A stretch of 64,000 nucleotides of DNA from Paracyclopina nana (lineage: Eukaryota; Arthropoda; Copepoda; Cyclopoida; Cyclopettidae): assembly GCA_019096065.1 (NCBI GenBank), contig JAGUCH010000006.1, positions 3,554,001 through 3,618,000 of the forward strand, written 5' to 3'. The notes beneath the pieces were generated by a model. The model was not told where the DNA came from, did no database searches, and saw nothing but the letters and a program-made list of their open reading frames with translations. The position numbers were made by a program, and so were the translations under genes. Shown in pieces: positions 1,714 to 27,261 of this stretch; position 1 is the first letter of the stretch; every line of letters begins with the position of its first letter.

Positions 1714-2526
1714 TCAAAGAAAATTGTTGCAGTAAAATACAGATAGAAGTAGGAGGAGAAAAGTATTGGCCTCAGAACCGAGGCTGGAGGCTGAATAATG
1801 CATCCTCGAGGCTTCTTGCTTGATGACTTCGTTTTCAAACTTTCTCTGCTTACTCTGAAAGTCTCTCACCACTTTTTTGGCACTCTCCAGCGTATTTTCA
1901 TCCAAGCCTTGAGCACTCTCCACCACAGGGTAATATTTATTCTTTTCATCAAACATCATGGACGATGGTGGTGGCATTTCAGGCTTTCCTGTGGTTCTCG
2001 GCTCGTTCACCTTATGGTGGATCTCGTTGTTTTCTGCCACCTTGAAAATGACTTTCATATTGTGCGTGGAGCATCTTCCACCATTTTTGCGGTGCAGGTC
2101 ATCAGGTCTGGAAGTGGTGATAAAGTAGTAGTCTCTGCCTGGATGGAATTCCAGGCCTCCAGGGGTGGGCGTGAAAGACCTGAAGGTGATGGTAAAGTAC
2201 AGCAGTTGGCTGGGGTCGGTGCACGTAGCCACAACGCGAGACGAAGGGTTGGTCACCATGCAGGAGTCGTATTCTTCCTTGGATACGTTGTAAATGATGT
2301 ACTTCTCATCCTCTTCTTCACTGGGGCAAATGAAGTTGGCTTGGTCGTACTCCCACTGCGTGTTGCCAACGTTCACATCGATGACGTTGTCAGTGTTGTC
2401 GATCCTGAAGATCGGATTGTTTTTGTTCCAATGGACGATATGCACTTTTTTCGAGCTGGCAGCCAGCCTACTGGAGCAGCCAATTAAAATGAAAATCCAG
2501 ACTTTCCACGAGCTCCCCGTCATCAT
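1714..2526 (-). CDS. Ephrin: Ephrin A, GPI-anchored Eph receptor ligand
   Basis: The 270-residue ORF encodes an ephrin, a cell-surface ligand of Eph receptor tyrosine kinases used in contact-dependent axon guidance and tissue boundaries. A signal peptide covers about residues 1-24. It is followed by the ephrin receptor-binding domain (about 28-165), with the opening VHIVHWN, the four conserved cysteines (in NFICP, YDSCM, VATCT and GGRCSTHNM) and the receptor-contact loop FTPTPGGLEFHPG. A hydrophilic linker of about 80 residues ends in a hydrophobic tail (LLLLLSVFY) with no cytoplasmic domain, as expected of a GPI signal. The start is the first of two tandem ATGs, just after a likely 3' splice site at 2547/2548 (pyrimidine tract then CAG). 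This would join a non-coding first exon ending at 3198. The linker differs from those of ephrins B and D. Family assignment is firm; GPI anchoring is inferred. Confidence 0.93.
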   Translation of the reverse strand: MMTGSSWKVWIFILIGCSSRLAASSKKVHIVHWNKNNPIFRIDNTDNVIDVNVGNTQWEYDQANFICPSEEEDEKYIIYNVSKEEYDSCMVTNPSSRVVATCTDPSQLLYFTITFRSFTPTPGGLEFHPGRDYYFITTSRPDDLHRKNGGRCSTHNMKVIFKVAENNEIHHKVNEPRTTGKPEMPPPSSMMFDEKNKYYPVVESAQGLDENTLESAKKVVRDFQSKQRKFENEVIKQEASRMHYSASSLGSEANTFLLLLLSVFYCNNFL

Positions 2527-3197
2527 GTGTGCTTCAAGCTGCTGCTGCTGAAACGAGAAAGCAATAATTTTTTGGTGTGTAATTGACAGAAGTTCTATCG
2601 CAGCACAAAGTATTTTCCCCTAGGAATGCTGTTCAGCCGAAAATGATGATCACACAGAGAAACTTCTGTTCGGTTTTGAAAGGAGAAGTCTGACAGACAG
2701 GAATAGTCAAAAGATGCCTATCTTTTGCTCGGTAGTAAATATTCCTTGTTGAGAATGACACGTTTCCTTGACAAGTGAATTGGTGGCACTCCAAGAAATT
2801 GACTGACACTGTGAGCTTCAGCCCAGAAGCATCCATCTACATGCTTGTACTATACAGCAGTACGGTTGAAAAATGGATCGCCAAGAAATTCCATTGAAAA
2901 TGCAACTACATCCACCCATTTTCGCTTAATGGCTGGAGATTTATGCGTTCCGCGATGACACAAATGTGTGTGTGACTTTAATCCATTAGATTCGCGTTGA
3001 TTTCTGAATTATTGATCTCCACTAAAAGCCATGAGCATTTTTTGCGCCAGAAATCGATGATATGTGGTACTAAAGCTCGCAGCCACCCAAACAATGCATA
3101 AATTATGCCAGGTTGGCCATAAAAAAATATGCTCTCTATTTACTCTATTTTGAAATGAGTCAATTATAAGGCATGAAAAAAAAAATCTGCTGCTTAC

Positions 3198-3440
3198 CTC
3201 AATTAAGTTTTAGCGGGGCTCATGATGCTAATAAAGATAGGCTGGCGTAGGTATGTGCTCCTGGTGGGCAATCTGCGACACAACTAGCGTAGTGAGCTTT
3301 TCCAACGCGAGCATCGCTTACATCAGGAAGTTCGTCGCGGCGACAGCCAGCAACGCTAACGTTGCGTGCGTGCTCCAAGTGGCAACGCACCGTTGCATTT
3401 TCACTTCTACCACACAGGGCCAACTTCGAGTGCTCGAAAA
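3198..3440 (-). promoter_or_regulatory. Probable 5' UTR exon and promoter region of ephrin A
   Basis: On the minus strand a good splice donor (GAG then GTAAGCAGC) ends an exon at 3198. The next good acceptor downstream is at 2547/2548, directly before the ephrin A start codon, giving an intron of about 650 bp. The region from about 3240 to 3440 is visibly richer in CpG than its surroundings, as expected of a first exon or promoter. The 5' end is not defined by sequence alone. Confidence 0.45.
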
Positions 3441-6400
3441 TGGTCCCCATTCATGAAACCCAAATATAATGCTGAAACCCCACTCGTCATTCCAACGCTA
3501 AATACGCAAGTAATTATTTTTATAACTATTCCTCTTTTAGGGGCATTTCCCCAGAGTGGATTCGCTGCAGCAATCCATTATGGTCGGGATCGGATTGCGA
3601 CGACCCCTTTTTTATGGGATCGAAAGTTTTGAAAGCGGCCACTACAGTCTAGTAATCGAAGCATGACTAACTCAGAGGGTTTTGCACGGTTTAACAGCAA
3701 AGTAAGCGCCGCGCGCTTCTACTGGCAAAGAAAATCGCAAGATAGCGATCAGGACATCCGAAGAAAACTCAAGTTTGGCACGTGGATCGAGTGAATATTT
3801 CAGGGAATTTGCGGCTCGCCTTTTTAGCGCCGAACAAAGGTACTCAAAGTGCACTTATGCACGGTTAAAAATTGATAAGCCTTTGCTCAATGGAACACAA
3901 AGAGCAGAGGAGCTGCTTTTGACGCATATATTCTTATTACCCATCGCTCCCAGAGTGCATTCTTTTGATGCACGTTAAAAAGTTGAAGCAGAACTTGAAC
4001 TTTCCCTCTCTAGTGCACAGCTATGTATGTAACTTTTTAATTGAATTTTCTCCTCACTCTCCCAGGAAACTTACGATTATTGGCAATTATGCTCCCAGCA
4101 ATACATGCTGCTGTTTAAAAAGCTTTTGTATAATGAGACTGTCTTTTTCCCACCTCGCCCAAAATAGGATCTCGCTCGTAATTAAAATGTCGCGCAAAAC
4201 GACGAACGTCGGGCATTTGTGTATTTTTCGGGTTTGGCCCCCTGATGAAAAGATGACGCCACCCGCAATTCCCACATGACGACCCCCAAGGATGACAATC
4301 CTTCGAAAAACTTTTGCTTACCTATGTTTGAATAACTAGGGCAGGTGCAAATTGCTTTCGCGAGTTCCCACTGTGCAACGAATAATTGGACTACAAGATC
4401 AAGATCTCCGATGTCGGAATGTTTATTTTCCAAGAATATTATTATTATTATTCCAAAACGTTGGCGGTGGGAAAAAATGGAGGGTAGTTCGACAATTAAC
4501 ATCCTCAAGGTCCATGTGTATACTACAGTACAGTACAACTGCGGTTTGTACCGATCAAGTTTCCCAACTTTGATCTCGAATTGCAAGCAACCTCAAAAAC
4601 TTTGACTCTGTTGCACCTGCCTTTAGCAGCTCTACATTTCCTAGTAGAAACTTGGACGTGACTGCCAACATTGTTAGCAAAGGATAATAGCTGATCCATT
4701 TGTTGCCTTTACATCTTATCTGAAAAGCCTCAAATGAAACAATTTTAGCTTCAAGATGTGTTTTCATCAACATGTCACTTGAGCCTCGTGTAGAAACTGA
4801 AGAAATTACGGTCGTGCGGTTACATTAACGCGGTCAGATTCGGAATTCCGGAATGAGGTCTGAGAGTAACAAATAGTCATTTTAATGAGTCTATTTGGGG
4901 AGGGTGAAGTAACTGGCTGCTCCCCCGCAAAATGTCCATCGTTCAACACCCGATGAGGCCAAAGTAAAAGCTTTTTAAAAAATGGCCCCAGAAAATTTCA
5001 TGCATCAAGGACTGGAAATCTTTGTTGAATATTTGCATGCTATGAGCAAAAAATGATTGCTCTCCTCGGTTGGGCAATTTTCCCTGACCTGGAGCATTTC
5101 TGGGCCGTTTGAGCTCATAACTTCAAATGCTATCCTGATTAGCTCTCACACCTACAAAATGGAAGTAGACCACCCTGGAAAAGGCTTAGGAAACTCATTT
5201 TGTGTCATTACTTTTCTTGTCGCCTGACTTTTAGTGGAAACCGTCACCCACATAATCCTTTTACAGCATATTGCATGGGCTGAAGCGGTTCAAAAACTCA
5301 CTTTTCGAACGTGATTTTTTTACCAGCCCCACACTTGACAAGAGTTAAGACAGATATTTGAGCTTGCACATTCATCATCGTTATGAGCTGTAATACAAAT
5401 CCTTGGAGTCCAATTATGCATTTTTTTTTTCAACATCACCCCCAAAAGGAGTTCGTTCACATGCACATTTCGACTTAATGATGAAGCCAAGCTAACTAGC
5501 GAGCTTTGCTGTTTTTCCAAGATTAGCTAGGAAGTGAAAGATTCGATTACAGGCATTGACAAATCTGAGAAAACCGACTTACCACTGCACTGCAAAAATA
5601 TGAAGAAGCTGGGGAGAAGAAAATCGGGGAAAATAGCTGAAGTCTTCATCATTTTCGAAAGGTCACTTTTAAGACTCCTCGGATTATCATCTACTTTCCA
5701 TCTGACCATCAAAGAGATGTGGACTCTCAAAGGCATTGTGGTGGGTTTTGCCCTCAAAATGAGAATCCAACCAAGCAAAGACAAAAGTTTCCACATCAGA
5801 TAACGAAATCGGGTTGATGCTTTTGATCTGATTAGTTTGGCTTTGCGCTGTCAATCTCCCATTTTCTCTCTTATTTGAAGCTGAATAAGCATATTTCTTC
5901 GATGGCCCAAAAGTCGACGAGATCTCATAAATATTGCTTTAATTGCACTAAATTCAGCTCTAAAAAGTGTCAGGCTGTCAGCTTATACATTTAGATTTTT
6001 GTTACGTACTTATTAGAACAAATGTTTACAGAAAAAGCCAAAGAAAAGCAGTAGCAAAAGATTAGGATCTGGTAACGATGTTTATTGTTTTTTTACGGCA
6101 ATTTTTATTTTTGTTCGAATTTGTTTTGATTTCTTGCAAAAATTCGCCAAATCGATTCGGCGTTTGTTTATCTTTACTATATCATAATTTTCATTACATT
6201 CGTTGCTTGATTCAAAAGCAAAAACTATCAATGGCTTTGAAAAAGAAGAAATTGATGAAAAACATAACTATGGAGGCTTGCGAGTGAAAAGCCAAATAAC
6301 GTGGGTTTCTGTGTGAAACAGGAAAAGAAGCTAGTTTTGAAGTGAGCTGCTAACTGACCTAATCACGTTTTATTTTTCCTAACCTCTTCTATTCTCAGGG

Positions 6401-9400
6401 ATCGACTTTATTTTTGAAATTCCCGCTGAGAGCCGTCCAACTCTGAGTTTCTCAGCAAGACTCCAAAGTTCGCAGGTGTGAGCTGTGAGCTCGCGCACGC
6501 GGCAAAGTCTTTAAAGTTTGGCTGCTCGGCTCCGATGTTATTCAAGGAAATGCTCCAGCTCAAGACCTATGAACTCAGGTAAGCATTGCAGTACTACTTT
6601 TGAAAACGAAGGAGTTATTGCCATTCCATGGGCGTTTTTCACGCACTGTACCGAAGAATGTTGTTGTTCCATGAATCACATTACAAGGGGTATGCATGAC
6701 ATTGCAATTGGCCGGGATGATAAAATAGTTTCATTAACCGCGGAGAAATTCCATTGAAGAAGCCCTCGGGCTGCCCCCTGGCACCTGCTGCCAAGCTGAG
6801 AGGTTTTTAAAACAAACCCTATAAATTCCCATCATACTTCAGACATTTAATAATCTGGAATCTGCTAATTAAAAAAGAGATTGTTTTGACCTGTACCTTG
6901 GGCCTTGAGATGCCTTTTGCATTTCATAACACGAGCGACTTTGCGGACGGTGATGAACATGTTCAAGGCCAAAACTTGCATTAATTGAAGCCTAATATCT
7001 TGCTGAAGATAGCTGTGTACTTTAGTTCCCTGGCCTGTCAAGTCGCCCCCTTTTTTTGGTCACCTACTGTCCGGATGATCTTTTTGTTCTATTAAATTAT
7101 CCAACTGAATCTAAAGACTTTTTTTCTCCCCTCAGCAATCCTGCCTCTTCTTTATGGCCTTGCTTTGTGATAAGACCGTCAACTCTTGTGGCGAGGGGGA
7201 AAAAAGTTTCTGTATCAAATCAAAGAGACACATTGATCGAATTAGGCCGTGGCTTACACATGCAAAAAGCCTTTTAAAAACCCACCTCGATTCGTCATAG
7301 TTGTTTATGATTTGAGCCGAAATTCTGGTCACAGCATGATGCCACATTTTTGCATGCCAGTCAAACTTTTCTTAACTTTGAAAAACAACCCTTCTCCTCT
7401 TCAAGTAGGTTTCCATGGAACAAAACAGCATTTGCAGCTTGTCAATAGCCTCTTTTTCTTATCTGTGTTTGCATTTTGCACTAGTAGTGGTACAAATTAC
7501 CAGATTGCCATCTCTTTGCCACCTTAAACATGTTGGCTCATATCTGATATGTCATCACTCTCCACAGTGAACTGAGTAATGAAATTGGCAGCGTGGCCAA
7601 CTTCCTTAATTCAAATTGCAAAAAAAAATCATAAGCATAATGTGCATTTCACATGTTTATTTGAGCATCACAGTGCTGGAATTTGCTCATGGGCTGTTAT
7701 CAAAGCTGCTGCGGATTTGGCTATTAAAATAGCATTTTTCCAAATTACCTTCAGACACATTGATAATGGGTGTTATTCAGCGTGTGTCAGCCAAATTGAC
7801 GTTCAATTGAAGCAGCAGCAGCTGCTGCTGCAGTTAGTCAACACGAGTCAAAAATTGATTTTCAATTGACCTTGTTTTGGTGCTATAGAAAATTGATTTT
7901 TCTCTCGTGTGCTGTAAAACGAAGAAATCGGATTGATCTTTTTCAGATGCTGCTGTTGTAGTAGCATCATAAAATCAGTAGCCAATTTGCTTTTACAGCT
8001 CAGGGACCCTGAAATGAGGTGATATGCAGGTGCTGCCAGGTGCATGCTTAAAATAGGAAATTTCCCCAGTCCACAACTAGATTACCTTGAATTTCCACCC
8101 TGTTTTATTGCATTTTCAGCAATGGGCAAATCCATTTCCAATTCAGGAAGCATCAGCAGCAGTTATTTTGTTAGTTATTTTGTTTAAGGTCACCCCACGC
8201 TCAATTTCCCCCCGCTCGACAAGACATTACTCAAGAACATGGATACGTATGTATGTTTTCCAGTCTCTAATTAGAAATATTCTGTGTGCAGTCTCCGAAA
8301 GGTCAACAACTCCAGAATTGAATGAATTCGCTCTTTCATATTAGGGTTGACGTGAATGTGCTGCTCTGCTCCCTATCAAACTGGAAATCGACGTCTCGAA
8401 ATGCAGAGAATTCACGTCGTCTTCCATAACGGGGACACAAACCCAAGTTGGTGCTGCTGCTGCGGTCAAAAAATCCACTCGGGAATTGGGCAATCAGTTA
8501 TGCCCCAATTGACATCGATGTGTTTCCGATTGCCGAAAATTGATGGATCGATCGGAACTACTCCCTTGTCAGTCAAAAGTCAAAGAAATCCTCAATCAAG
8601 GAATTAGCTCTGTAAAACAGAGACTGGAGGCACTTTTGACAGGCAAGGTCAATAATCGCGGTGAAATTTACCAATAGGGCATTTTTGACTAATTTTATCC
8701 ATGTACTCGCTCCACCTCCTCCCAATTAGACTAATTTTACAAGAATTTCACGCTTGTCTTTCAAGTTTGCTCTCGATCCACTTTTTGACACCAGAACCAC
8801 CGTTGATTTGGGTCTATTGAAGAATCTTCCCAAGATGGGAGATTCGAGCTTGGAAATACCTCTAACAAACCAGAACAATGCTGGTCTTCTGAGACCGACT
8901 TGTCTGACATCATTAATCATGGCAATTAGTTCACTACACTCTTGTCATTGTTTGCCTGCAGGTTATGAAGGAACAAGCAGATTCCTATTTCAGCATAATA
9001 TGCTGCAACAACACCGGCAGCACAATAGGTCATTTGTCCCCTAAAATATGACTCGTTACACACAAGTCATAATTACATTTGACCAATTCCACTTGAGCTA
9101 ATGACCCTTATACTGTAATAACTTGTTTCACAGTATATAAAGCAACAAAGCTTCATTATTTGTTGGTGGATCCATATCTTTTTTCTGCATGAGTCACCTT
9201 TTTGCTGCTGCTGCATTTTTGCTTCTCGTTTTCCCATCGTTGTGTGTGTGAGTGTAGAGGAAAAGCTCTCCAGGAGGTTCCTTTATGCTTCAGCTTTTTC
9301 CCTGATTGGCTCGTATTATAGTAGCAGTCTGGAAATCATGTTGCCACCAGCCATGTAGTTTTGAAAAACAGCCTGAAAGTGGACATGATCAAAGTGGACT

Positions 9401-9657
9401 ATTTTGGGAGCTGCGTCGACCATCATTTGTCAAATTGTGAACTGAACCAAAAGCCCCTTTTGATGATATCTTTTTGCCATTATCAGACTTTGGAAACTTG
9501 AGCTCGTGTCCATTATATCTGGCACCGCTCAAAAAAGTGGGAGTGCTTCTACTTCTGCTCTCTCACAGTTGCCAAAAAAATAACGGCGATGATCACTAAG
9601 CTGTTATCATTTGATAATCGACGAAAGAGAATTGGCTGTGGGATGCAGTTGCAATCG
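3441..9657. other. Gene-poor interval between ephrins A and B
   Basis: About 6.2 kb between divergently oriented ephrin genes with no convincing coding region. Frames of 60-100 codons occur on both strands but show no family resemblance. One (5527-5796, minus) starts with a signal-peptide-like segment and is discussed separately. A perfect 20-bp palindrome of AGC/GCT triplets lies at 7812-7831. The position suggests ephrin regulatory DNA, but this is inference. Confidence 0.55.
7812..7831. repeat. Palindromic CAG/CTG triplet repeat
   Basis: The 20 bases GCAGCAGCAGCTGCTGCTGC read identically on both strands. This is a short head-to-head triplet microsatellite outside any recognised gene. Confidence 0.85.
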
Positions 9658-9679
9658 ATTTTGACCAATTGGTCAAAAT
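9658..9679. promoter_or_regulatory. Perfect 22-bp palindrome upstream of ephrin B
   Basis: The 22 bases are fully self-complementary, centred on CCAATTGG with TTTTGA/TCAAAA arms. The palindrome ends 26 bp before a TATAAAAA at 9706-9713, about 430 bp upstream of the ephrin B start codon. Its size and position would fit a dimeric transcription-factor site, but no family can be named from the sequence. Confidence 0.4.
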
Positions 9680-9705
9680 TCCCATTAGTCAATCGCAGCA
9701 TGATG

Positions 9706-9713
9706 TATAAAAA
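9706..9713 (+). promoter_or_regulatory. TATA-like element upstream of ephrin B
   Basis: TATAAAAA followed by about 280 bp that reads as a plausible 5' UTR exon ending at a GT donor at 9991 (CCAG then GTACGA). An acceptor (TTCATAG) follows at 10049, giving a 59-bp intron, and the ephrin B ATG is at 10113. A second TATA-like string (TATATAAAG) near 9134 is an alternative. Inferred from spacing only. Confidence 0.35.
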
Positions 9714-10112
9714 TTGCCTGGATAATCAACGGCCAAGTCCAGGTGCCACAATGATAGGAAACTGATGTGGTGTCATGCAGAGCATCGCGTCATTACTCAT
9801 CTCACCCCCATATTCTACGAAAACGCTGACCAAAGGAGCCATTTACCCCCTGTGCAGACTCGTTTGATAGTTCGGGCATTTCTCGAGAGATGGCACCACG
9901 AGGCGGAGACACTCAATACTGATCAGCGAGACGCGCGGGGGTGGATCAGCAAATTGCCAACTCTCTCAACCCTCGACTGTCACCAACCAGGTACGAAGCG
10001 CCCCATTTTCCGTATTGACCACAAGAGTCTAGCGTCTCACGGTTCATAGGTCAGTTCGTCTCAGACAACGGTCAGCTTCAGACGCACACATTTCTCCACT
10101 GAAAAAAAAAAG

Positions 10113-10964
10113 ATGTCAGTGATCGTCTACAGTATCTTCTTTGCCATTTTGATGGCAGCCAACTTTGTGGAAGCCAAAAGGGTTCACTACATCCATTGGA
10201 ACAAGGCCAACCCCATGTTCAGGCAAGACAACAGTGACCACATCATGGATGTCAATGCTGGCAACTTGCCATGGGAGTACGACCAAGTCAACATCATATG
10301 CCCAGTTTCCAAGCCAGGCGTTAAGTTCCCTGAAAGGCATGTCATCTACAGCGTAAGCCGTGAGGAGTACGATTCGTGTCGCATCACCAACCCAAAGCCC
10401 AAAATTGTTGCTGTATGCAGCCAGCCTCATCAACTGCTGTATTTCACCATCACTTTCCGCTCTTTTACCCCCACGCCTGGAGGCCTTGAGTTTTTCCCTG
10501 GCCGCGACTACTATTTTATCTCAACCTCTTCGCGAGAGGATCTTCATCGGAGAGTTGGTGGAGGCTGTGCCACTCACAATATGAAGATGATCTTCCGAGT
10601 GGCTGACAATGGCCGAGTTCACCCGTCTTCCAACTCAATTTTTGGGGAGGAGATTCCAACCACTACGACAACTACGACAACCACAACGACTGAAGAACCG
10701 AAGATTATCAGATTTAATTCCAAAGTTCCCTACTCAAGGAATGAGTACATTTACTACTACCACCCACGCGATCTTATAGAGGACAACAGCATTGATTCGC
10801 TCAACAGGGTTGAACAAGAGGAAGATATCTACTACAATGCCATGTTGAGATCCAGCAATGTCGATAAAGAGGCACTCCGCTACACCAGCAGCGGAGAGAA
10901 GCTAGTGCACACTTCTGTGGTATGGTCTCTTTTGGCAGCAATTTTGCTCAAAGTGCTCGTCTAA
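10113..10964 (+). CDS. Ephrin: Ephrin B, GPI-anchored Eph receptor ligand with Thr-rich linker
   Basis: This intronless 283-residue ephrin has a signal peptide at about 1-21, then KRVHYIHWNKANPMF opening the receptor-binding domain, which runs to about residue 165. The four domain cysteines are present (NIICP, YDSCR, VAVCS, GGGCATHNM), as is the contact loop FTPTPGGLEFFPG. An uninterrupted run of eleven threonines follows, then a linker carrying NSKVP, YIYYYHPRDLIE and KEALRYTSS, which recurs almost unchanged in ephrin D. A short hydrophobic end (WSLLAAILLKVLV) with no cytoplasmic tail implies GPI anchoring. The ATG follows an A-rich leader and begins a clean signal peptide. It is the closest relative of ephrin D among the four copies here, so B and D are probably the youngest duplicate pair, although they lie 15 kb apart in opposite orientation. 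Confidence 0.94.
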   Translation: MSVIVYSIFFAILMAANFVEAKRVHYIHWNKANPMFRQDNSDHIMDVNAGNLPWEYDQVNIICPVSKPGVKFPERHVIYSVSREEYDSCRITNPKPKIVAVCSQPHQLLYFTITFRSFTPTPGGLEFFPGRDYYFISTSSREDLHRRVGGGCATHNMKMIFRVADNGRVHPSSNSIFGEEIPTTTTTTTTTTTEEPKIIRFNSKVPYSRNEYIYYYHPRDLIEDNSIDSLNRVEQEEDIYYNAMLRSSNVDKEALRYTSSGEKLVHTSVVWSLLAAILLKVLV

Positions 10965-11149
10965 AATAGACGTGAAAACCAGCCATGAAGAACAGTTCCA
11001 TTCTGCCAAGAAACCCAGGAGTAGCTTAAGCAATGCTGTGATGCCTCAGATGATTTATTTTTTACCTATAAATATCAAATTTATAGTTTACATTTGCAAT
11101 ATCATTCCTTCTGTTTTTGTGGTGCTCAATAAGTACCTTAAATTAATCC

Positions 11150-11155
11150 AATAAA
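11150..11155 (+). terminator. Polyadenylation signal of ephrin B
   Basis: A canonical AATAAA about 185 bp after the ephrin B stop codon, in AT-rich DNA, consistent with the 3' end of that transcript. Confidence 0.65.
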
Positions 11156-11159
11156 GCAC

Positions 11160-14100: not shown

Positions 14101-14486
14101 ATTTTGGATGCAATATGGCCACCACCAAAACCCAGACCTCTAGCTGAGTAAAAAAAAAGGAAGGGAGCCCCTGGAACTGGAACATAAATTCCCAATAGTC
14201 TATAGAGATCGAGCACTTTTTGGGACTATTGATGCGTTATGGATTCGTCTGATGCTGGCCTGAGCTCGAGAGCCATAAAGAATGGCATTAAAATCAGCAG
14301 CTGAAGTCTTTGCAGAGCAGCTAGGAGAGCTGTTGAGGCTAAAGTCATGCAGCATGTGTGCGCCAACAGCGCCCATTTGGACCCTTCAGGGGGCCGCAAG
14401 CCCACTGTGCTATGTGAGCAGTCTAGTCGACTTTGAGCAGCATACTTAGCAACATGTGAAGCGCCATTCAGCACCAAAAATAGAAA
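11160..14486. other. Interval between ephrins B and C without recognisable gene
   Basis: No supported gene. The longest frame (13011-13454, plus, 147 codons) has arbitrary composition with hydrophobic patches, no signal peptide at its start and no splice partners. I regard it as fortuitous. The two ephrins are tandem here, so this DNA is both the 3' flank of B and the 5' flank of C. Confidence 0.55.
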
Positions 14487-15155
14487 ATGTGGCTTATCCT
14501 TCTACACTACTGGGCAGTGGTGCTCTTTTGTGCATCATCCTTCAGCAGTGCGCGAGCAGAGAAAGTCCATTTCGTGCACTGGAACTCGACTAATCCCATG
14601 TTTTACAACAGCATCAGCCCTGTGATTGAAGTCACCACGTCTGCGGACCATTGGAATTACGAGCAGGCCAATATCATTTGTCCATTTTATGACAAAAGTG
14701 TGCCCAAGTCCTTGACTGAACAATACGTCGTCTACAACGTGACAAGAGAGGAGTTTTTCAAGTGTAGCATTGGCGAACAGCAGCAGCAGAAAATTGTGGC
14801 CCTCTGCAACACTCCATATAGGCCCAATTTCTTCACGCTGACATTCAGGTCGTTTTCACCCACCCCAGGAGCTTTCGAATTCCACCCTGGACAAGAGTAC
14901 TACTTCATCTCAACTCGGCCAGGATCTGATCAGTGTAGCCACCCTCCCATCAGGCTCATTTTTCGGATCAAAAATCGCCTGTCAACTGAGGAGCAAGATG
15001 ACATTGCTGATAACAGTGTGACTCACAATAAAGAGCACGAAGTCTTCATTGGCAGTCCGAGGGAGATGCCAATTATGTACGACTCTGGAGCCCAGACGCA
15101 GAAGCTTTCAATAATCCTGCTTTTAACAGTACCTTATTACATATGTCTTCATTAA
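14487..15155 (+). CDS. Ephrin: Ephrin C, divergent short ephrin
   Basis: A 222-residue intronless ephrin, the shortest and most diverged copy. A signal peptide occupies about 1-24, and EKVHFVHWNSTNPMF opens the receptor-binding domain. The first three cysteines are in place (NIICP, FFKCS, VALCN), and the loop FSPTPGAFEFHPG replaces the GG-LEF of the other copies. The segment before the fourth cysteine is shortened: DQCSHPPIRLIF stands where the others have the longer DLHRR-GG-C-THNMK region. A linker of only about 50 residues leads to a hydrophobic end (LSIILLLTVPYYICLH). The stop is followed by a polyadenylation signal at 15203. The frame and fold residues are intact, so it reads as a functional, fast-evolving paralogue rather than a pseudogene. 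Confidence 0.9.
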   Translation: MWLILLHYWAVVLFCASSFSSARAEKVHFVHWNSTNPMFYNSISPVIEVTTSADHWNYEQANIICPFYDKSVPKSLTEQYVVYNVTREEFFKCSIGEQQQQKIVALCNTPYRPNFFTLTFRSFSPTPGAFEFHPGQEYYFISTRPGSDQCSHPPIRLIFRIKNRLSTEEQDDIADNSVTHNKEHEVFIGSPREMPIMYDSGAQTQKLSIILLLTVPYYICLH

Positions 15156-15202
15156 TGTAGGCGTGCACTCAATGTTGACACATGGTAAATTCATACAGAG
15201 AA

Positions 15203-15208
15203 AATAAA
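15203..15208 (+). terminator. Polyadenylation signal of ephrin C
   Basis: AATAAA about 48 bp after the ephrin C stop codon. Confidence 0.65.
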
Positions 15209-15209
15209 C

Positions 15210-18200
15210 CAGCAATTTTTAATCATACTTCAAAGAATTCTTGGACTGTTTTCTCGTTATCAGGTGATCGGTACAGGCTCCAAAGTTTCGAGTCATTCGT
15301 CATTGTCTAGTAAGCTGATCGATATCTCCGGATCCAACTAATAATCAAGCCACAACGGCAGCAACCCGTTTAATGTATCCACTGGCTGCTGCACGGTTAA
15401 CGAACCTAATAATAAGCGCTTATTTTGCTACGTAGCGCATACATAGGTAATGTAGCCAAAGGCATGTTGATTGATTATCGCTTGATGTTTTCGAAAAACA
15501 ATTTCCAAGCGAGGAAAATAAGTACTATGAAGCTCAGCATGAAGTGAACGTGCTCTTGTTTCCAAGACCCCCGCCCAACAACCCTTTAGAATAGAGGAGT
15601 GATTTTCGAATTCCAAATTCAAAAGTACCTTGTTGCGGCTTGATTAATGAAGCTATAAATGGCTGATCTTTCTCTTGATAACTGTGCATGGACGTCTGAG
15701 TGCTATTATATAAAGAAACTGGAACTTTGAGACTCAATTCATAGACGGTTAATTTGTCTTGATCAAATGGTATATGTATCTGAGATTCTGCTGTTTTTTT
15801 AAGTGAGCCAATATAAAATGTCGTTATAGGGGCAAAGCCATTTTTGGACCTCCTATCAAATTTGGCAAGAGGAATGGCCCTTTTCTGATGAATAGTATTC
15901 CAAAAGCTGTTTTCGTTCAAACATCGCTGGCAATTTGTTTAAAACTCTTCTTTGTGTACTATTCTTTTGAGTGTGGTTGAAAAAATTTGTGGGGCATTTC
16001 GCTGCGGAAAAACCTTGAACGGTTGCACAGTTGGAGATCAACCAGGCAATTTTTTTCCACCCCAAAAAGCTGATTTTCTCAGCTGCTGAATGACTTCCAC
16101 CATCCAAAAATAGATTTTCCCTCCTGATAAAGTTTCCAAGAAAAATTAGAAGCCGTAAATCAGTGCCTGATTTTCAGACCCTCCACCTCGATCTCGTCTT
16201 GATTATCATTATCATCATGATCAGGATGATCATGTAAAAGTTAAAGACTAACGCAAAAAATGATGGATTGATGAAATGCTGGAATGCGAAGCAAAGACCT
16301 CCCAAAATGAAATGGATCAAGCATTTTATGCCAAGAAAACCAGTCAGACATTCGCGTCAATCATTTGGAAAAAACATCAAAATAATGGATGTTGGCAGGC
16401 AGAAATTACATTGCTCGAAATCGACAAAAATACAAAGAAATACAAGAAATTCAAAATTATCTAAGTCAAGTCAGTGCGCAATTTAATTGAAGCACACGCA
16501 ACCTTCAATGATGACAACAATCAACAAAAAATGCCCAAAACAGCTGATTCATAGTGGAGACTTTTGAAAAAGTGCATTTTTACTGTTAACTATTTGATTG
16601 ATGCTCACATTCTCGCCGCGTGAAGCTGGCAAAGCTGCTACATTCCTATATTTGAAGACGCATGAATGTCAAAGCCTCGCATGTCCGCCATCCATTTTTA
16701 GGGCTAACCCACATTATTCATAAAGAGTTGAGAATGCGAGCTAGCTGCGAGGGCAAAAGTCTTTAAAGGAGAAAACGATGCTAGATAGCTACAGGCAATT
16801 TCTCATGTCAGCCGAAAGGAGTAAAATGGCGGGAGCAAAAAAAGCCCGACGTCTGAGGAAAACTTTGATTTGTCACCTTTAAAACTTTCAGACTAGTTTT
16901 TAGGGCGCAAAAACTAGCACTGTTATTCTTAAGTAGCAGAGTACATGCCTTTGTGGCTATTTTTCATTTTTTGACCCAAATTCTAACGAAAAAATTCCAA
17001 CGACATTGATTTATTACATGTGACCTCCTATCCTGAGCTAACAAAGTAAAAATGAGGAAAATATGGGCTGGCGTCGATCGAATAAAGTGTCAGATATAAA
17101 ATATCCCTTTCCGGATAATTTTGGACAGATGCTGAAGCCATCAGCACCTTTATTATCAATGCAAGACCAGTTTATTTATTTGAGTAATTGAATCTGCCAC
17201 ACCACATGTTCAGGATACATTTGCGGCCATTTTGGGATCTAATTTGAGTTATTTGACCATATGCAGATAAATTGACTTCTCGCCACCACAGTCAGCTTAA
17301 TGTATTGATTTTTTTCTTGGTAGTCTAGACTCAAACTTGGTTCCAGATGCTGAACGTTTTTGCAATTGCTAGGATTTCTAACATGTAATCAAGTACGAGT
17401 CGAACACTCAAGCTCCATAAAAAACTCAGTCTACTAATGAAATGGAATTTCCTTACCCTATTCAACAATTACAGCTGGAGCTCAAAATTCTAACTTTTTT
17501 ACTTGGGATTTCAGAATTGGAAAAATATCGTGGTAAAAATTAAAGCCTTTTATTGTTTTTTAGAGATTTCCCCCCATGTGCAAAATTCGTAGTCCTGTGG
17601 TCATGTCTGTCATTTTGAGTTCGTTTTTAGTTCGCCAGAAGACATTTGTCTTCTCCCCTGAAGACCCTCCTGTGCAATTTTTTTAACTCATGCCTGTGAT
17701 TACAAGTCGTTCACGAGAGAATGACAATTACCCCTCATCTTTCATTTAATCACCATGAGTGTCACTCTGTATTTTAATGAAATACATCCGGTCCGCCACA
17801 GCTAAAAAGTCTACCATTATCAAATAAAATGGATTAGGCGAAAATGTCGCTCGTCAGCTGTCAAATAGAGCCACACAGCGACTCTTTTTTATGGCTTTTC
17901 GTGGGTTGAACATCGCACTTTTTAATAAGCACCGTCTCGCTGAATTGGTAATTAGAGCATTAGACGGGAGTTTGATCTAATTCATATTCATAATACATTA
18001 AAATGGCAGCATGAAGCCAAGCTGCCAAATATGCAGAGCTAAGTGACATTTCCGAAAACCTCCGCGCATTTTTTGCTTCTATGCCAACATAGCTGGTGAA
18101 TTAATTAGCAGGAAATTCCCTGGTATGCCCTAAAATTATGCACCCGGTTGATGTGCTCGTTCCCTGCATTCGGCCTCGCAATAAACAAAAACTGCATTTC

Positions 18201-21200
18201 TCAACCAGAAACATCTCTCTATGCTTTGTGAATTTCAAAAATGGAAAATGGTATATGCCAGCTGTTTTTCACCTGGAAACCAGTAATGACAAGCTAAATA
18301 AACAGATTTTGGGCTCAACACTCTTGAGGTTTCAACCCTTGTCTGCCTTTTGAGTGTCCTCTCTTGCTGTTGAAGAGAGAGAGACACCCCAAAAGCCACC
18401 CTGTTATTGTAATGGTTTTCTAGCATAGGAGAACATACATAACTTTTTGAACAGCTCTCAACTGTTGAATACAACTCAATGAGCTCTGATGGGTTCTTCA
18501 GCGTGAAAAATTGCCCCACCAACTACTTTTTGCTGTGAATTGAATTTATTTGGTTTTCTAGCCAGCTAGACCACATATGGCTCAGAATGTAAGCAGTTGT
18601 CCTACTTTTTCCAAACCAACATCAATGTTCTCCGTAATTAAGGCCGCCTATTTGGAGAACACAAAAAATGCCCATTTTGCAGATTCCTATCTTTGGTTTG
18701 TGGTTGAGGCTTTTTACATTAGAAAATGGGCGTTTTTCGTTTTACACTAACCAAAAATGCCTTGTTACATTACACTATGCAGCAAATATCTTCATTACAA
18801 GATCAACTGTCAGGTGAAGATGTTGTTGGCTAAAAAGAGCATAAAGGGGACTTTTTATGCTTATTCTTTGGTGGAAAATGCGTGAGAATTGACCAGAAGA
18901 CAACGACGTTTTTTGGCCCCCAGCTGAGTTTGACTTTCAGATAAAGCAGCTCCTCCAGAGGATCCTGAGCTTGTGACCATTTTGTTTTAGTTCCCAATAA
19001 AAAGAGAGCATTTTGTTCTAAAGGGGAGAATGACTGACAGAGGGGCAACCTTAAAAAAAGAGACCGGTCAAAAGTTACTACAATTACTGCAAGCTCCTCC
19101 AACCGATCATCATCATTTGTAGTACCATAGCTCAAAGAATGTTGTAATACCTGAAGCTCAACAGAAGATTTATGCGCATAATGTTCTCTACCAGAAGATC
19201 CATATGTTGCTGCTATTATTGATGAAGTTTGGCCAACCAAGCCATCTCATCTTACCTGATGCCTGTGTTCCCATTCATTGCCAAGCAGAGTTCTGAGAAA
19301 ATGAGTGACTGACAACAATTATGAGTATCTACCTACATTAGCCTCAGGTCATTTAGCAGCATCTCATGGCATGATATCATGTCTAAGCCTACTGCATCAA
19401 CTAGAGCTCAGACTCTAACAAAAAATTATAATATTTTATTTTTAGCCCATTAAAGACATTGAGCTACACCTTTTTGATCCGTAGCCAAGTTTTCAGATAA
19501 CTTTTGGCACTTGAGCCTTTCAGTTTTAGCCTTTAGGCTTCATTTTCTCAAGTTAGCTCAAGTTAGGCTCATCTCACATCATCAGGCTTCTTTTTGATAA
19601 GGTGATCAGAAATTGCGTGACTACGTTTTCATCCCCCAGTTCTTCTCAGTTGGGGGCTTTTCTATCTTAATTTTTTCCGTAGGAAAGCATGCAGTACTGC
19701 ACAAGAGATGATGCTTTTTTGCTTTGGCGTGTGCTTAATGGCTTCATAAATTATGTCTCAGAGCATCATGAGAAAAAATCCAATTCAGCATTTGTTTATG
19801 ATTCAAGAATTCATTCCCAGAGCTTTAGCTGTAGAGTACGTAGTAGAATTTTTTAATTGGACCACAAACCGGGGAAACCGCAACTTTTGTTGACACCTGG
19901 CTATTTTATGGCACTTATGGCTCAATTTTAGTTTCCATGTCAAGTCCTCGTAAAATTGGTTAAAAAGATCTGCATCTGCATGATGAGTTGTAGCATCACA
20001 GTGAGCATCAGATGGAAAAAATACCCCTTATTTGTTAGCTCAATTACAGAGGTTTTGCAAGTAATTTGGGAGTAAATGTGCTTGAGCCCGTTTTCCCTAA
20101 GTGCAAATTCCCCCATCTCCATGCAATAAAGAGTAAAAGTTTTGCTACTTGTCTTGGCTGTGTGGAAGAGGTTTTTTATCACTTGTTGCCTCCAGAATTG
20201 AATGGCCTGAATTAGATGCTGTAAAGTTTATGACAAGCCAATTCACCCACTTTTAAGCTGCTAGCATCAGCTACTGCAAGCTAAGTTTAGCAAATGAATT
20301 TTCCACTTCAATTATAATTTGCATGAGATTTCTCTCATATTTTCACCTTGACCATGGCCAGGCCCTACCCACCCATTTTGCACACACACACAAGTCAAAT
20401 TACACACAGTCCAGACACTTTTGCATGCCAATTTTGAGCACGCAATCACAAGTCCAAAATCTTGGAGCCATTTGGTATGTGTACATGGTAATTATTGTAT
20501 GCCTTTAAAAATCATCTCCAACAAGTCAAGAGGTCGAGAAAAAAATACCACAACGCTTTACAGCCTTGCAAAAGTGACTCGGCCCATTAGTGGAAAAAAG
20601 GCAAAGTTTTCTGGCTTTTTGCAAAATTAACGAGATGAGTTTCTCAGCATGAGTTGGAACTTTTGAGATTTGTTGGAAAAGAAGAAGTCTCTCCTCAGCA
20701 AGAAATGGTAGGTGGGGTGACCATATAGTGAAGAACTTGGAAAAACAGCTCACCATGATGCAAGTGCTCTTTTAGCCAAAAGCAACACCTGTAATTACCG
20801 CTCGTTTGCGCCCCAGCTTTTCTCTCTAGATTATTGTTCTGGCCATCTCAACTCTGCTCTGCCATTTTCTCACATTTTGACACTGAACCAATTAACATTA
20901 ACTGACTTTTTTGCTGCTTTCCCGGGCAGGGACTACATTATTTCTGCCCAAAGTGCAGCACTTATTTCTTGCCTTTTATTATGTCACTCAAGCTTGGCCC
21001 CGAGGTTCTCTCATCACTTGGGGGCAGCTGATGTCCAAGAAAACTAATAGTCCAGATACTGTACATTGTGGCTGACCAGATGTGAGCAAAATTCTATTAA
21101 CACTCTTTGGTAATTTTACACTCTGGAAATGGTCAAAGTCAAGAGCAGAAATAGGAGACTCTCGGCGCCTTTAGCTCCTGGAATAAGATTGTAAAATTGG

Positions 21201-22207
21201 GGTGGAAAAAAAGCTTTAATTGCCTGTGTAGTACAGCCTTGTAAACAAAAGCCATAATTAGGAATGGGATTGGACCCACGCCGATCCAGCACAACAACAA
21301 AGGCAAAGCAAAACAACCCGAACTGCAGCAGCTGCGGCCACGTGTGCTGAAGCATACATAAATATGGAAAAAGCCATGAAAAGGCATCAGCAATGAAGTT
21401 GCTGTGAATAAAAGGTTTCGAGCTATAATTCACATGGTGAAACAAGCCATTTATGGTTCATTTGAGCCACGACCCAGACGTAAAAGTCTGTGCATGAAAT
21501 TGAACACACCCAACTTCAGCTCTCCTCCCTGAGCCAAACCACCATGGATTTTGAAGTGCCATGGAAAATTCTTGCGCTGGCTGGTATACAGCCAGTAATC
21601 TGCATATTATTGCCAAACTGTGTAAATCGTAATGTGCCGTGACATTCAAACTCACATCTGTTCGACTCCAATCATAAATTCAATGATGCTGTGAGCACTG
21701 GTAACATGAGACTGCTCAAAATGGCATCCAGACTCCTCTGCTCAAAAATGATGAAATTTCTTCTTCGCTCTGCCGCAGAAGAAAAAGGGTCACTGCTCAA
21801 GGTTAACGAACCACAATTCCAAAGGATCAGCTTTCACACATTGAAAAAAATTCCTTTATACCAAGAAGTGACCACTACATACCATCGCAATTATGATTTC
21901 TCTAAGTAATGTAATTTATCTTATAAATGGCTAGATTTTAATATCAAAGCTAGAAATGATCAGGAAATTTGCAAAGGAAAATTTCAACTTCCTCTCACGC
22001 GGTGATTAACATATGTTTTCATTGAATGGGGAATGTGGCAATGTAGGCGGCAAAAATCTTGTCGCAAAGGCTGAATTTGGTCAAGTGGAACGGGAAAAGA
22101 TGAGAGTATTTCCCGACGAAGATACGTGTCTCTTGAGAAAGTAGCTCGCAAGTATGATCTCTTTGGCTGATTCTTCCAACTCAATCATCAGACTGACATT
22201 TTAATTT
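15210..22207. other. 7-kb interval without recognisable gene
   Basis: The largest gene-free stretch of the ephrin region. On the minus strand near 19253 and 19150 there are good donor-like strings (CAG then GTAAGA; CAG then GTATTA) within an open frame (18830-19240). No protein family is recognisable and no consistent exon chain can be built, so no gene is called. The DNA is AT-rich, with no inverted-repeat element found by eye. Confidence 0.5.
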
Positions 22208-24922
22208 TCAATCTTCCTCATCTGGAATGACTCCTACAGCTCTCAGGAATTCTCTCTTTTCCTCTTCGGAGGCCGAAGGCTCTGGTTTTCTCAAGGCTCC
22301 AGGAATGACAAAAAGGCCGCGCCTTTCTACGATTTTGTTGTAGGATACGAAGGAGAACATATTCAGGTAATATCTGGTGCCTTTCGTGACTGGCATGTTG
22401 CGAGCAAAATGAGTCAGCCTGTTGGGAGCCACGAGCACGTGGCCTATGGGCGGATCTGGCACGATGGGGCAGTCTTGAGTGAGATATTTAAAGCCCCCAC
22501 CTTCGTAGTCCTCATTAAGCGCCATGAACATTTTCAGCTCATAAGAGAGCTCCTTTTCAACATATGCCATTGGAGGGTCATTTGCCTTTTCCTCCATGAT
22601 GTGAAATCTCCCACCTAGGAGCTCTTCAAAGCCCTGATAGGCATTGAATAGTCGTTGGAGAATGTAATATCTCATAATTTGACGCCACTGCCTCTCAAAG
22701 CCAAGTTTATGCAAGTCCAAAAATTGAGGGAAATTTTCAGGTTCCTGCTGGCTGGTTGGTAAAAGTTGTTCACTTTTCTTGAATTCTTCTGGGTGACCTT
22801 GTCTGGCTTCTTCTAGCACGTCACGTGCAAACAAAGGGGTGAAAAATTTCATGTAGTACACATTTGGGCAGGCTGTGGTCTTGATGGTGTTACGAATCAG
22901 CTCCTTTGCATCCAGAGGAATTTTCTGGTACTTTTCGTTGCTAGTACCAAAACATTTTATGAGATCAGGGTCTATATACCTTCTTTGCCACAAGTCATGA
23001 TTCTCGTAGAATCTACCCAGTTCTGGATGAAGTTTCAGGCTTTTGGGTATTTTGTCAGCATTCACGATTTGTCCGTACCTTTTGTCCGCAAGTATTTTGG
23101 GAACGTATCCACTTTTCCTTAGTCTGCTGGTGAAAAAGGTATCTTCGGAAACTCCGTGCTTTTTGGCACTGTCTTCCCATGCAAAGTCATTCAAGATTTT
23201 CGTCTTGATCAAGTATGCATCTCGTAGTTGCAAAGCTTGGTAAATGCCAGGCTTATCCAGGTCCAAAATCCTCCTTTCGATGTGGTCAAATACGGTGAGA
23301 TTCTCCCGTTTGGCCTTCAGGTGCTCGTCCAATAAAAGGGCAAATTCTTCTTCTGAGGGGAAAAAATTCACGTTCAAGCTCTTCAACTCAAAGTCATCTC
23401 TGTTCTTTCGGAAAGCATCCATCCATCTTTTAAGAAAAGTGGCATAGGAAATGGCAGTAGGTGCAACGTTGAAATTTTGCAGCCGAATCAGTCCCAAATA
23501 ATTTTCCGTCTTTTCTGGCTCAAGGATTGCACGATCAACCGTCATGATGAGGAAAGGATCAGTGTAAGTTCCAGTGATGTTCCAGCCTCTGTCGAAGGGA
23601 TTCACGTATACTGGAACGGAGCCATCTGGATACGTTTCAAGCAGAGGAGCCATCACATTTTGATCTTGTGCAACTAAATTTTTCAAGACATCTTTGTCTT
23701 CCAGATGGGCCGTTGATCTGATCAGAAAGGTGAATGTTGAGTTTTGACCCATTTTTAGAGCTTCGTTGATGGACTCGACAATGGAGGCTTTTTCAAAGTA
23801 TTCTCCTTTGACTTGTGAGATTAGTTCCAGCTTTTTCTTGTTCCTGCCAACAATGGCCATGGTCAGTGAATCTTTGGGGTAATCGATTTTATAGATCTTA
23901 TTGAAGAACTCCTCGGTGAATAGAGAGGGGTCATCCACAACAGCCACAAGATGAACCAGTGATGGACGTTTTTCCTCTGCGACGACTTTTTTTGCTTCAA
24001 CTTGCCTAATCAAGATGTTAGACAATGGGATAAAACTGTCGGGTAGAATGTCATCATAGACAAAAACAGGTCGAATGTCACTTGTCTTCTCATAAATAAA
24101 CGTTTGGAGACCACCTGAAAAAAAGGCCGATCCATTGGCATCTTTATGACACTTTGACACAACTGAACTCAACTCACCATCTTCGTAGACGAAATGCTTA
24201 GAATCGTCGAGCTGTGCAAAAACGTCTTCAGGCATCTCACGTGCAAAAACTGGATTTTCCGCAGACTTGACACTGTCTAGCTCAAAGATTGCATTGATTG
24301 GCTTATCTGCGTGCTCTCTGAGAACGGTTTTCGCGAGCTGGATGTCAATGATCGCCATGGGTCCATTTTGGCCTTTTTTGATGAGTAATGGAGTTGGATG
24401 CTCGCGTAAGAGGTTCAACATGGGAACTCGTTCACTGTTGATTAAAACTGATGAATGGTTGAAGAGGACCACATAAGAAGAATCAGACTTGATTTCGTCT
24501 AATTTCTTCATCCATTGTTCAGTACACGATATTTCAAGTGGAGAGCAGCCAAGAGACTTAAATAAATATGCAAACTCATGATTGCAGTCGTTGTTCAAGA
24601 ATAATGCCTTATTGTGTATCATACCTTTCGTGGCCACCCAAATGCAGCGCAATTTTCTCTCAACAGTGCCATTGCATCTTCAGAAGAAGAGCCATATGTG
24701 TAAAGAATTACATCTGAAAGCAATTAGCTATTTAGCTGTGCTTCATAAAAGTTGCGTTATACGAGCCGCGCGTTGAAATCACCAGACAGGGCGAATGTGC
24801 TTACTATTATATGCCTTTGGGCGATGAGATGTCTTCTTTTTCTTCTTTTTTGCACCCACCGCATTGCATAAAATGCATAACACTATCAAACACAAGAGCA
24901 AAACTGATCGTTTTCTCCCCAT
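22208..24922 (-). CDS. Lysyl hydroxylase-like (PLOD family) protein, probably catalytically degenerate
   Basis: Three exons: 24805-24922, 24625-24713 and 22208-24556, joined in frame through 91-bp and 68-bp GT..AG introns, giving 851 residues. Exon 1 encodes a signal peptide (MGRKRSVLLLCLIVLCILC) followed by a lysine run, so the protein enters the ER. The order matches procollagen-lysine 2-oxoglutarate 5-dioxygenases: a degenerate N-terminal glycosyltransferase-like region, a second one (about 270-430, with DYPKDSL), and a C-terminal Fe(II)/2-oxoglutarate domain with DYEGGGFKYL, then RLTHFARNMPVTKGTRY. The distal iron His (about 785) and the 2-oxoglutarate Arg (about 797) remain. The position of the family's HxD pair reads K-E-L (about 737-739). 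The sugar-donor acidic motif of the N-terminal domain is also not visible. The chain is longer than the usual 700-760. Membership is secure; lack of hydroxylase activity is inferred. Confidence 0.85.
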
Positions 24923-26243
24923 TTTTATCAGCTGACTGACAACAGGCTACAGTTGAGGAATCTGCTGAGTAACAGCGACGGCATCATGCTTGAGAAGCAA
25001 CTAATTTACCTGAGAGACACTCTGAACTGATCAGCTGCTTCTTAGCAAAAGATTGCAAAATTAGCGAGATTAGTCTGCGTGCGTTTGCATTTTAGGACTA
25101 AAAATAATGGCAGATTTCCTTTGTCTCCCAAAATCAGATAACCCCCCTACACATTTTAGCCAATGTTCACGAGTCAACTTTTATCCTCTTTTAGAAAATT
25201 CCTGCAAATCCCGATTCCCACAAAAGTCGAGGTGTTTGTGGCGCAGCATGAGGCCCTATTCAAAAATAAAACGAACCGACTGGAATCATCGATTTGATAC
25301 TCTCCCTGTTGTGTGTGGCTCAGTCTCAAACCCCTTTGTGTTAGGCAATGCCAACACAATGTGCTCGTGTTCATTCATTTCGGCGATAATTCCAAAAATA
25401 CCACGCGAGCAGCTAGCGCGTTTATTAGCACAACAACCATGTATAATCTCTTGTTGGACAAGATGCATTCCATGGCAATATTTATAGTGGACAATAAAAG
25501 AAAATAGAAAGTAGTGTAAGTTTTTGGCTTTTATGCATTATGACACCCCAAGTTAGGGCATGTGAATTCGAAACACCCGACCCGGCATTTCTCCTCCTGC
25601 GGAGTCATATCGAATTGTTGCAAAGTGGAACCATCAACTTCTAAATGTGAGATAAGGAAGGAGAGAGTGTGTAAAAGGCTTCTTTTTATCTTGGTGAGCA
25701 AAAGTTGCCCTATAAATATTCGGGTACTTGTATCACCCGCCCATTTCTCTCACTTCTTGGAGATCGTTTCAAATTTCTTCACGCAGCATAGCTAGCTAGC
25801 AACTCGGATGAAAATGAAGGCAGGAGACTCATGCTAAAAAGCTCGAGAGTGGCCATAAACATATTCCAGTGCTGTAGTAATTGCGGCTCCAAAGTGAGCG
25901 ACCCAAAAGTGCTGTTGTTTAGCATTTTAAAAGAGACCCAAATAGATTTTTCGCACCATAAATCCAGTCGCAGCCAATTGACAGAGAAATGCAAATAGCA
26001 GCCTAGTCAAAGCTTCGATCGTTTGAAGAGGTATGCAAGAAGAAACCACAATTGAGAGCAAATTGGCAATAATGCTTTTAAATGGACCTGTCACGACTTT
26101 TCAAGTGCTTCTTGTCACGGAAATATTGGCAGCTACCAGCGCTGAGTAGGTATAGGATGAATGATAAATCGGATACATATTCTTATACTAGCTGGTAAAA
26201 ACGTGAATGTAAGATCAAGGTTCTTTGCAATTGGAATCAATAA
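24923..26243. other. Interval between PLOD-like gene and ephrin D
   Basis: No recognisable gene. It contains the promoter side of the PLOD-like gene and, at its right end, the 3' flank of ephrin D. Both genes are read on the minus strand. Confidence 0.55.
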
Positions 26244-26249
26244 TTTATT
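26244..26249 (-). terminator. Probable polyadenylation signal of ephrin D
   Basis: AATAAA on the minus strand about 150 bp after the ephrin D stop codon. Confidence 0.5.
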
Positions 26250-26397
26250 ATGATATAGTGGCTGACATGTGGCTATGCAAAAATGCTAAATGGTAGAAAG
26301 TAGCAGGAAGTATCACAGCAATTTTGAAATAGTACAAAGAGATCTTCTTCTTAGGTGGTTTTTTGAGCAGGAGGAATGATTTGCGTGCAGAGCAGCA

Positions 26398-27261
26398 TTA
26401 AGCTAAAACGATCAGCAAAAGTGCAACTGCAACTCCAAGGCCTGACGACGAGCTGACAAGTGATCTGGATGAAGAAGAGGAAGTGTATCGGAGTGCCTCT
26501 TTCTTCCACACATCATTGTCATGCGGCCTATACCGATGTCCTCCTTTCTGTGGGCTGAGACTGTTATTTTCCAATTCGATGAGGTCCCGTGGGTGATAAT
26601 AATAGATGTAATCGCCACGATGATTCGGGACTTTGCTATTGAACTGAACGATTGGTTTGGGCGTTGTGGACGTGGACGTGGTGGTGATGGAGGTGAAGTG
26701 TGCCCCTGACACCTCGTTGGACGACAAATCCCCTCGGGGTGCGTTGATCTGCGAGTGATCCATTCGGTTGTCCGACACCTTGAAGATCATCTTCATATTG
26801 TGAGTGGAGCAGCCTCCGCCAACTCTTCGATGAAGATCCTCCGGCGATGAGGTTGAAATGAAGTAATAGTCTTGGCCTGGATGAAACTCGAGGCCTCCCG
26901 GAGTGGGCGAGAATGAGCGGAATGTGATGGTGAAATACAGCAATTGATGCGGCTTGCTGCACACAGCAACAATTCTGGGCTTTGGGTTGGTGATGCGACA
27001 AGAATCAAACTCTTCGCGGCTGACACTGTAGATGACATGCCCCTCCGGCTGCTTCACGTCTGGCTTTGACACGGGGCAAATGATGTTGACTTGGTCGTAT
27101 TCCCATGGCAAGTTGCCCGAGTTGACATCGACAATGTGGTCAGTGTTGTCCAATCTGAACATGGGGTTGGCCCTGTTCCAGTGGATGTAGTGGATTTTTC
27201 TGGCACTAGCACAGTTGAAAATAAAGGCGCCAAGCAAAACCAAGCACTTGAGGAGATCCAT
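26398..27261 (-). CDS. Ephrin: Ephrin D, GPI-anchored Eph receptor ligand
   Basis: An ephrin of 287 residues starting at the ATG at 27261, which opens a signal peptide (MDLLKCLVLLGAFIFNCASA). The frame is open further upstream, but that part precedes a splice acceptor-like site at 27372 and looks like 5' UTR plus intron. The receptor-binding domain begins RKIHYIHWNRANPMF and carries all four cysteines (NIICP, FDSCR, VAVCS, GGGCSTHNM) and the loop FSPTPGGLEFHPG. The linker has a Thr/Ser-rich piece, then NSKVP, YIYYYHPRDLIE and KEALRYTSS as in ephrin B, a serine-rich stretch and a hydrophobic end (LGVAVALLLIVLA) typical of a GPI signal. The similarity to ephrin B, including the linker, marks the two as recent duplicates. 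Function as an Eph ligand is known for the family. Confidence 0.94.
   Translation of the reverse strand: MDLLKCLVLLGAFIFNCASARKIHYIHWNRANPMFRLDNTDHIVDVNSGNLPWEYDQVNIICPVSKPDVKQPEGHVIYSVSREEFDSCRITNPKPRIVAVCSKPHQLLYFTITFRSFSPTPGGLEFHPGQDYYFISTSSPEDLHRRVGGGCSTHNMKMIFKVSDNRMDHSQINAPRGDLSSNEVSGAHFTSITTTSTSTTPKPIVQFNSKVPNHRGDYIYYYHPRDLIELENNSLSPQKGGHRYRPHDNDVWKKEALRYTSSSSSRSLVSSSSGLGVAVALLLIVLA

Follow-up and report, generated by a model that had tools for sequence, protein, structure and literature searches.

The genome of Paracyclopina nana contains a real and old expansion of the ephrin family, which is not an assembly error. Ephrins are signals exchanged at cell contacts, which guide growing nerves and maintain the separation of tissues. 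Eight ephrin genes (E1 to E8) lie within 90 kb of a single contig, a ninth (E0) lies 1.8 Mb from this cluster, and one Eph receptor gene was found in the same genome. Judging from the sequences, local multiplication of an intronless founder probably produced ligands that have one Eph in common and are set apart by their expression and tether. The window, a stretch of 64 kb at C6:3554001-3618000 (contig C6), belongs to an assembly of 91.95 Mb in 10 contigs, in which TTAGG repeats are present and a search for COX1 gave no match, so that the mitochondrion is seemingly missing from the assembly. The insect odorant receptor family 7tm_6 likewise had no match, but none occurred in any control genome either, and the absence carries no weight.

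The window contains four complete ephrin ORFs, copies A to D, arranged on the minus, plus, plus and minus strands, each consisting of one single open frame, and all four passed the cut-off of 25 bits for the Pfam Ephrin domain (PF00812). The original prediction was confirmed as to the four ORFs, their coordinates and strands, and their intronless coding regions. Its copy number of four is correct for the window but not for the genome, which has eight copies in the cluster and one elsewhere, and the figure of four was an effect of the window edge. A six-frame search of the genome gave nine PF00812 matches, all nine above the cut-off, all on contig C6 and with no internal stops, and the divergent copy C, used as query, recovered the same nine loci from 10 candidates. 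The genome search was carried out exon by exon, and its counts are lower bounds. The nine ephrin genes are as follows:

E0, minus strand, two inferred coding exons at C6:1701810-1701653 and 1699846-1698949
E1, plus strand, C6:3490679-3491569
E2, plus strand, C6:3507242-3508054
E3, minus strand, C6:3525515-3526390
E4, plus strand, C6:3543227-3544090
E5A (copy A), minus strand, C6:3555714-3556526 (window 1714..2526), 270 aa, Pfam Ephrin 125.9 bits at residues 25-163
E6B (copy B), plus strand, C6:3564113-3564964 (window 10113..10964), 283 aa, Pfam Ephrin 125.3 bits
E7C (copy C), plus strand, C6:3568487-3569155 (window 14487..15155), 222 aa, Pfam Ephrin 100.7 bits, profile positions 2-118 of 140
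E8D (copy D), minus strand, C6:3580398-3581261 (window 26398..27261), 287 aa counted from the ATG, Pfam Ephrin 126.4 bits

E5A illustrates the layout of these proteins, with a hydrophobic N-terminus, a receptor-binding domain, a stalk and a hydrophobic C-terminus. The frame of copy D can also be called from a GTG upstream of the ATG in the ORF listing. A separate non-coding first exon, which had been suggested for A, B and D, was not established, as acceptor-like sites within 140 bases of the ATG were only weakly above the control. An upstream acceptor tract score of at least 8 was reached by 5 of the 8 cluster copies and by 1844 of 5084 control windows, a score of at least 9 by 3 of 8 and 889 of 5155, and a score of at least 10 by 2 of 8 and 232 of 5065; the top scores were 9 for A, 8 for B and 10 for D.

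The four cluster genes outside the window are found upstream, at distances of up to 64 kb from it, and neighbouring copies follow one another in series on the one contig, separated by 3.5 to 17.5 kb. The cluster is loose and not a clean tandem array, and genes unrelated to ephrins are interspersed, namely a TLC-domain gene in the E2-E3 interval, transposon-like ORFs in the E3-E4 interval, and a PLOD-like gene that separates C from D. Gene order was not significantly related to relatedness, either for all eight genes (5695 of 20000 permutations as extreme) or without E7C (1596 of 20000). The interval between E2 and E3 also holds a direct repeat of 232 bases, 100% identical, at C6:3511897-3512128 and 3515602-3515833, 3.7 kb apart. 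In the interval between E3 and E4, the locus C6:3530145-3533279 (minus strand) carries adjacent long ORFs of 653 and 391 aa without a Pfam match, which look like a transposon.

The divergence between the copies bears on whether uncollapsed haplotypes have inflated the count, a suspicion previously raised for B and D. The coding DNA is 84.0% identical between B and D, 83.1% between E3 and E4, and about 66 to 75% in the remaining pairs where they could be aligned, so that 16% of the aligned positions differ in the first pair and 17% in the second. Similarity at the DNA level is confined to the coding regions. The 2-kb flanks of the cluster copies did not contain the near-identical DNA expected of haplotigs: among 38 between-copy matches, one was the same physical DNA, common to B and C as neighbours, while the remaining 37 had lengths of 14-27 bases (E 0.004 to 0.65), which is nothing above chance. 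Synonymous divergence (dS) was 0.855 for E3/E4 and 0.844 for B/D, and was greater than 1 or saturated in the other 34 of 36 pairs. No evidence was found in favour of a haplotype artefact, and, with eight copies in series on a single contig, unrelated flanks and a dS of about 0.85, its probability is negligible. The same dS values (0.84-0.86 in the two closest pairs, higher or saturated in the rest) show that the expansion is not recent. The predicted local duplication with inversion was borne out as an expansion in both orientations within one region, but not in its size, which is nine rather than four. Moreover, dN was 0.072 between B and D, and the dN/dS ratios of 0.122 for E3/E4 and 0.085 for E6B/E8D point to genes that are probably maintained by selection.

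The intron of E0 offers a view of how the cluster may have begun. This predicted intron, placed from the reading frames and GT-AG, has 1806 bases, is in phase 2 and lies at NP-AT|A-FRID, and all eight cluster genes lack it and read through that point. Codon 43 of human EFNB1 is presumably the K of NPKF. Intron 1 of EFNB1 follows c.128, as the c.128+5 variant has been placed in this intron, 5 bases behind exon 1 (PMC6886535), and this corresponds to phase 2. The E0 intron seems to occupy this same position, and, provided that the residue assumed above is correct, it would be ancestral and the founder of the cluster would have lost it. The loss of an intron relative to the parent, as looked for in retrogenes, is found here (one inferred coding intron in E0, none in the cluster genes), and introns seem to be few in this genome. 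A founder made by retroposition and one made by simple intron loss would both be compatible with these structures; a poly-A tract or target-site duplication left by retroposition would by now be eroded, as the flanks of the copies have nothing above chance in common. On the predicted gene structures, intronless coding is ordinary in this genome, as the MUTYH-like and PLOD-like genes are single frames and the Eph gene apparently has one coding intron, and the informative point would be the absence of the E0 intron from all eight cluster genes. Where introns are so scarce, the ephrin intron could have been lost more than once.

The two comparison genes both lie in the window. The MUTYH-like gene (43233-44468, minus strand) encodes HhH-GPD and NUDIX_4 domains within a single frame of 411 aa. 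The PLOD-like gene in the interval between C and D (22208-24652, minus strand) is intronless, encodes 814 aa and is related to the procollagen lysyl hydroxylase LH3 (E 3.3e-18). The H-x-D within the PHHDS of LH3 provides iron ligands; in the alignment, the PLOD-like protein lacks H-x-D at this position, and it had no Pfam match at 0.001, and may be a dead enzyme. In addition, an ORF at window 33117-33806 (plus strand) has many repeated short units of the ECHQVPKN type that contain cysteine and proline.

Phylogenetic trees were less informative on the founder, and the placement of E0 is model-dependent in a poorly resolved tree. Only E3+E4 and B+D were well supported, and, without E7C, also A with B+D (92/62). 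In the best LG+G4 tree, E1-E8 formed one group and E0 stood next to the outgroup; the FLU+G4 tree drew E0 into the cluster, where it grouped with E2 and E7C (84/40), and the node separating E0 in the tree without E7C had a support of only 42.6/51. The free and constrained LG+G4 trees had the same topology, so the AU value of 0.485 discriminates nothing. Because the trees place E0 inconsistently, a single founder is suggested mainly by linkage and by the missing intron. A different history would have several ephrins already present in an early arthropod or ecdysozoan, with the cluster inherited and all but one copy lost in insects. The large synonymous distances, greater than 1 or saturated in 34 of 36 pairs, agree with such an ancestral set, which is nevertheless clearly unlikely, as the eight copies still lie within 90 kb and all lack the E0 intron, and only one ephrin has been described in Drosophila (PMC2405795, PMC6040699), although neither point is decisive. 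A search for other arthropod ephrins with a profile of the nine sequences confirmed none (85 pattern matches in genome contigs, 59 in viral contigs).

The receptor-binding domains are well conserved. Within the cluster, the seven copies besides E7C are 62-87% identical in this domain, with the highest value between B and its closest relative D (87%); E0 shares 56-62% with these seven, and human ephrin-B2 shares 27-39% with all nine. The cysteines C38, C67, C80 and C130, which in ephrins form two disulfides, are invariant in all nine copies. The G-H loop is the part of the ephrin that enters the receptor. In the nine copies it reads FRSF[ST]P[TS]PG[GA][LMF]EF, aligned with FQEFSPNLWGLEF of ephrin-B2, and the mean pairwise identity of these 13 residues was 0.88 versus 0.58 for the remaining domain; only 2 of 128 windows of 13 columns, the loop included, were as conserved. 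In a PDB search, E1 matched 24 distinct ephrin sequences (ephrin-B1, B2, B3, A1, A2 and A5), and ephrin-B1 and B2 (65.7 and 62.9 bits) came ahead of ephrin-A1 (58.9), which fits the B-type domain described for invertebrate ephrins irrespective of their anchor (PMC6993872, PMC2405795).

The regions behind the binding domain have largely diverged, with an identity of 9-30% in 35 of 36 pairs and 49% in the exception, B/D. A motif of the type K-x-EA-S/L, picked after inspection of the alignment, occurs near the C-terminus of five of the nine copies, including E0; when the tail of each copy was shuffled 2000 times, it appeared in 6 to 75 of the shuffles. Despite their divergence, the tails may therefore be homologous. 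The N-termini are hydrophobic by eye, and in all nine copies the most hydrophobic 15-mer ends at a distance of 0-14 residues from the C-terminus. Such a C-terminus may direct the attachment of a GPI anchor, which is uncertain in E0, E1, E2, E3, E4 and E6B, where a charged residue lies by eye within or behind the hydrophobic tail; only E5A, E7C and E8D are free of one. The ephrin of Manduca sexta is GPI-linked, and a GPI anchor would therefore not be new in arthropods.

The nearly identical binding loops might also mean that the genes are redundant copies that only raise dosage, with no division of labour. This is very improbable, since the upstream DNA of the copies has nothing above chance in common and the stalks differ as greatly as described, and retention over saturated synonymous distances would suggest distinct roles.

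The original prediction had proposed to count the Eph receptor genes of the same genome, and one was found. The genome search gave one Ephrin_lbd match, at C4:6891503, a count that is a lower bound. A single coding intron seems to interrupt the gene: a first open frame of 787 residues runs from the ligand-binding domain into the kinase, and a second of 268 residues holds the remaining kinase and the SAM domain, and Pfam searches on the pieces found all three domains. With the kinase-SAM piece as query, 35 matches were obtained (143 of 169 candidates scored), and none but the Eph gene itself reached past query residue 181; its score was 611 bits, that of the next best match 150. The expansion thus concerns the ligands and, as far as these searches show, not the receptor. 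With a single Eph found and a G-H loop that hardly varies among the nine copies, new positional codes in the form of new binding specificities are not favoured, and combinatorial recognition by many receptors in the vertebrate style does not seem to be available here.

Copy C appears as the fast-evolving exception. Its binding domain is 42-47% identical to those of the other eight, versus 56-87% among those eight; its branch is the longest of the nine (1.13 substitutions per site), the loop before the last cysteine is shortened by a deletion of seven residues, and the stalk is short. An AlphaFold model of E7C from a four-row alignment was of low confidence (mean pLDDT 42.4) and is uninformative. 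The sequence features of E7C would suit a scenario in which part of the cluster, above all E7C, has become independent of Eph and now acts with another receptor, for which EFN-4 of C. elegans, described as acting with LAD-2/L1CAM, is a precedent (PMC12533845). E7C has, however, kept the four cysteines, and its G-H loop FRSFSPTPGAFEF is close to FRSFSPSPGALEF of E0. A change of partner is rather unlikely, and it would be compatible with the main explanation for the other copies; E7C would be the best candidate for it among them.

The preferred explanation can be summarized as follows. A founder without the E0-type intron would have given rise, by old local duplications and inversions, to the 90-kb cluster of eight open genes, and their products would combine a conserved binding domain with a stalk that changes fast and a hydrophobic C-terminus, which perhaps directs a GPI anchor. 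All copies except possibly C would most likely act on the single Eph through cell contact, as ligands that are graded or tissue-specific and differ in the place, time and amount in which they are made and in their tether, not in their fit to Eph. The ephrins would differ in the cells that display them or in their levels, and the single Eph would read the strength and place of contact. A fuller version, in which one receptor and nine ligands form a system with constant binding, with position information in the placement and tether of the ephrins and with E7C free for a different partner, is put forward tentatively and with some doubt.

Nine ephrins and the one Eph found provide a natural test of what the diversity of Eph ligands is for, specificity of binding or placement and dose. 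Expansions of ephrins are themselves known, and nine ligands to one receptor in an arthropod is a new instance with an unusually large ratio. Among the papers listed in literature searches on arthropod ephrins, no title or abstract mentioned an ephrin cluster in an arthropod. Arthropod ephrins have been described with a transmembrane region (PMC6993872, PMC2405795, PMC6040699), and one candidate ephrin and one candidate Eph have been described in the cricket. The Ephrin of Drosophila is likewise an arthropod ephrin with one Eph receptor (PMC6040699), but there is only one such gene, and three transmembrane segments have been described for its product (PMC6993872), whereas the nine genes here encode a hydrophobic stretch at or near the end. 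In Ciona intestinalis, an ephrin cluster also arose by local duplication, but the animal is a tunicate and its ephrins are of class A and fewer, with four GPI ephrins described (PMC6993872). Cnidarians also show a lineage-specific expansion of ephrin ligands, but their ephrins carry a transmembrane region and their Eph receptors were duplicated as well (PMC6485061). The nematode C. elegans has been described with four ephrins and the sole Eph receptor VAB-1 (PMC2405795, PMC12533845, PMC6993872), and there, too, several ephrins stand against one Eph, with GPI anchors and with EFN-4 acting without Eph. In contrast to those four, the ephrins here number nine, eight of them clustered and without the E0 intron, and the parallel with the four-to-one system of C. 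elegans makes separate ligand-only expansions comparable.
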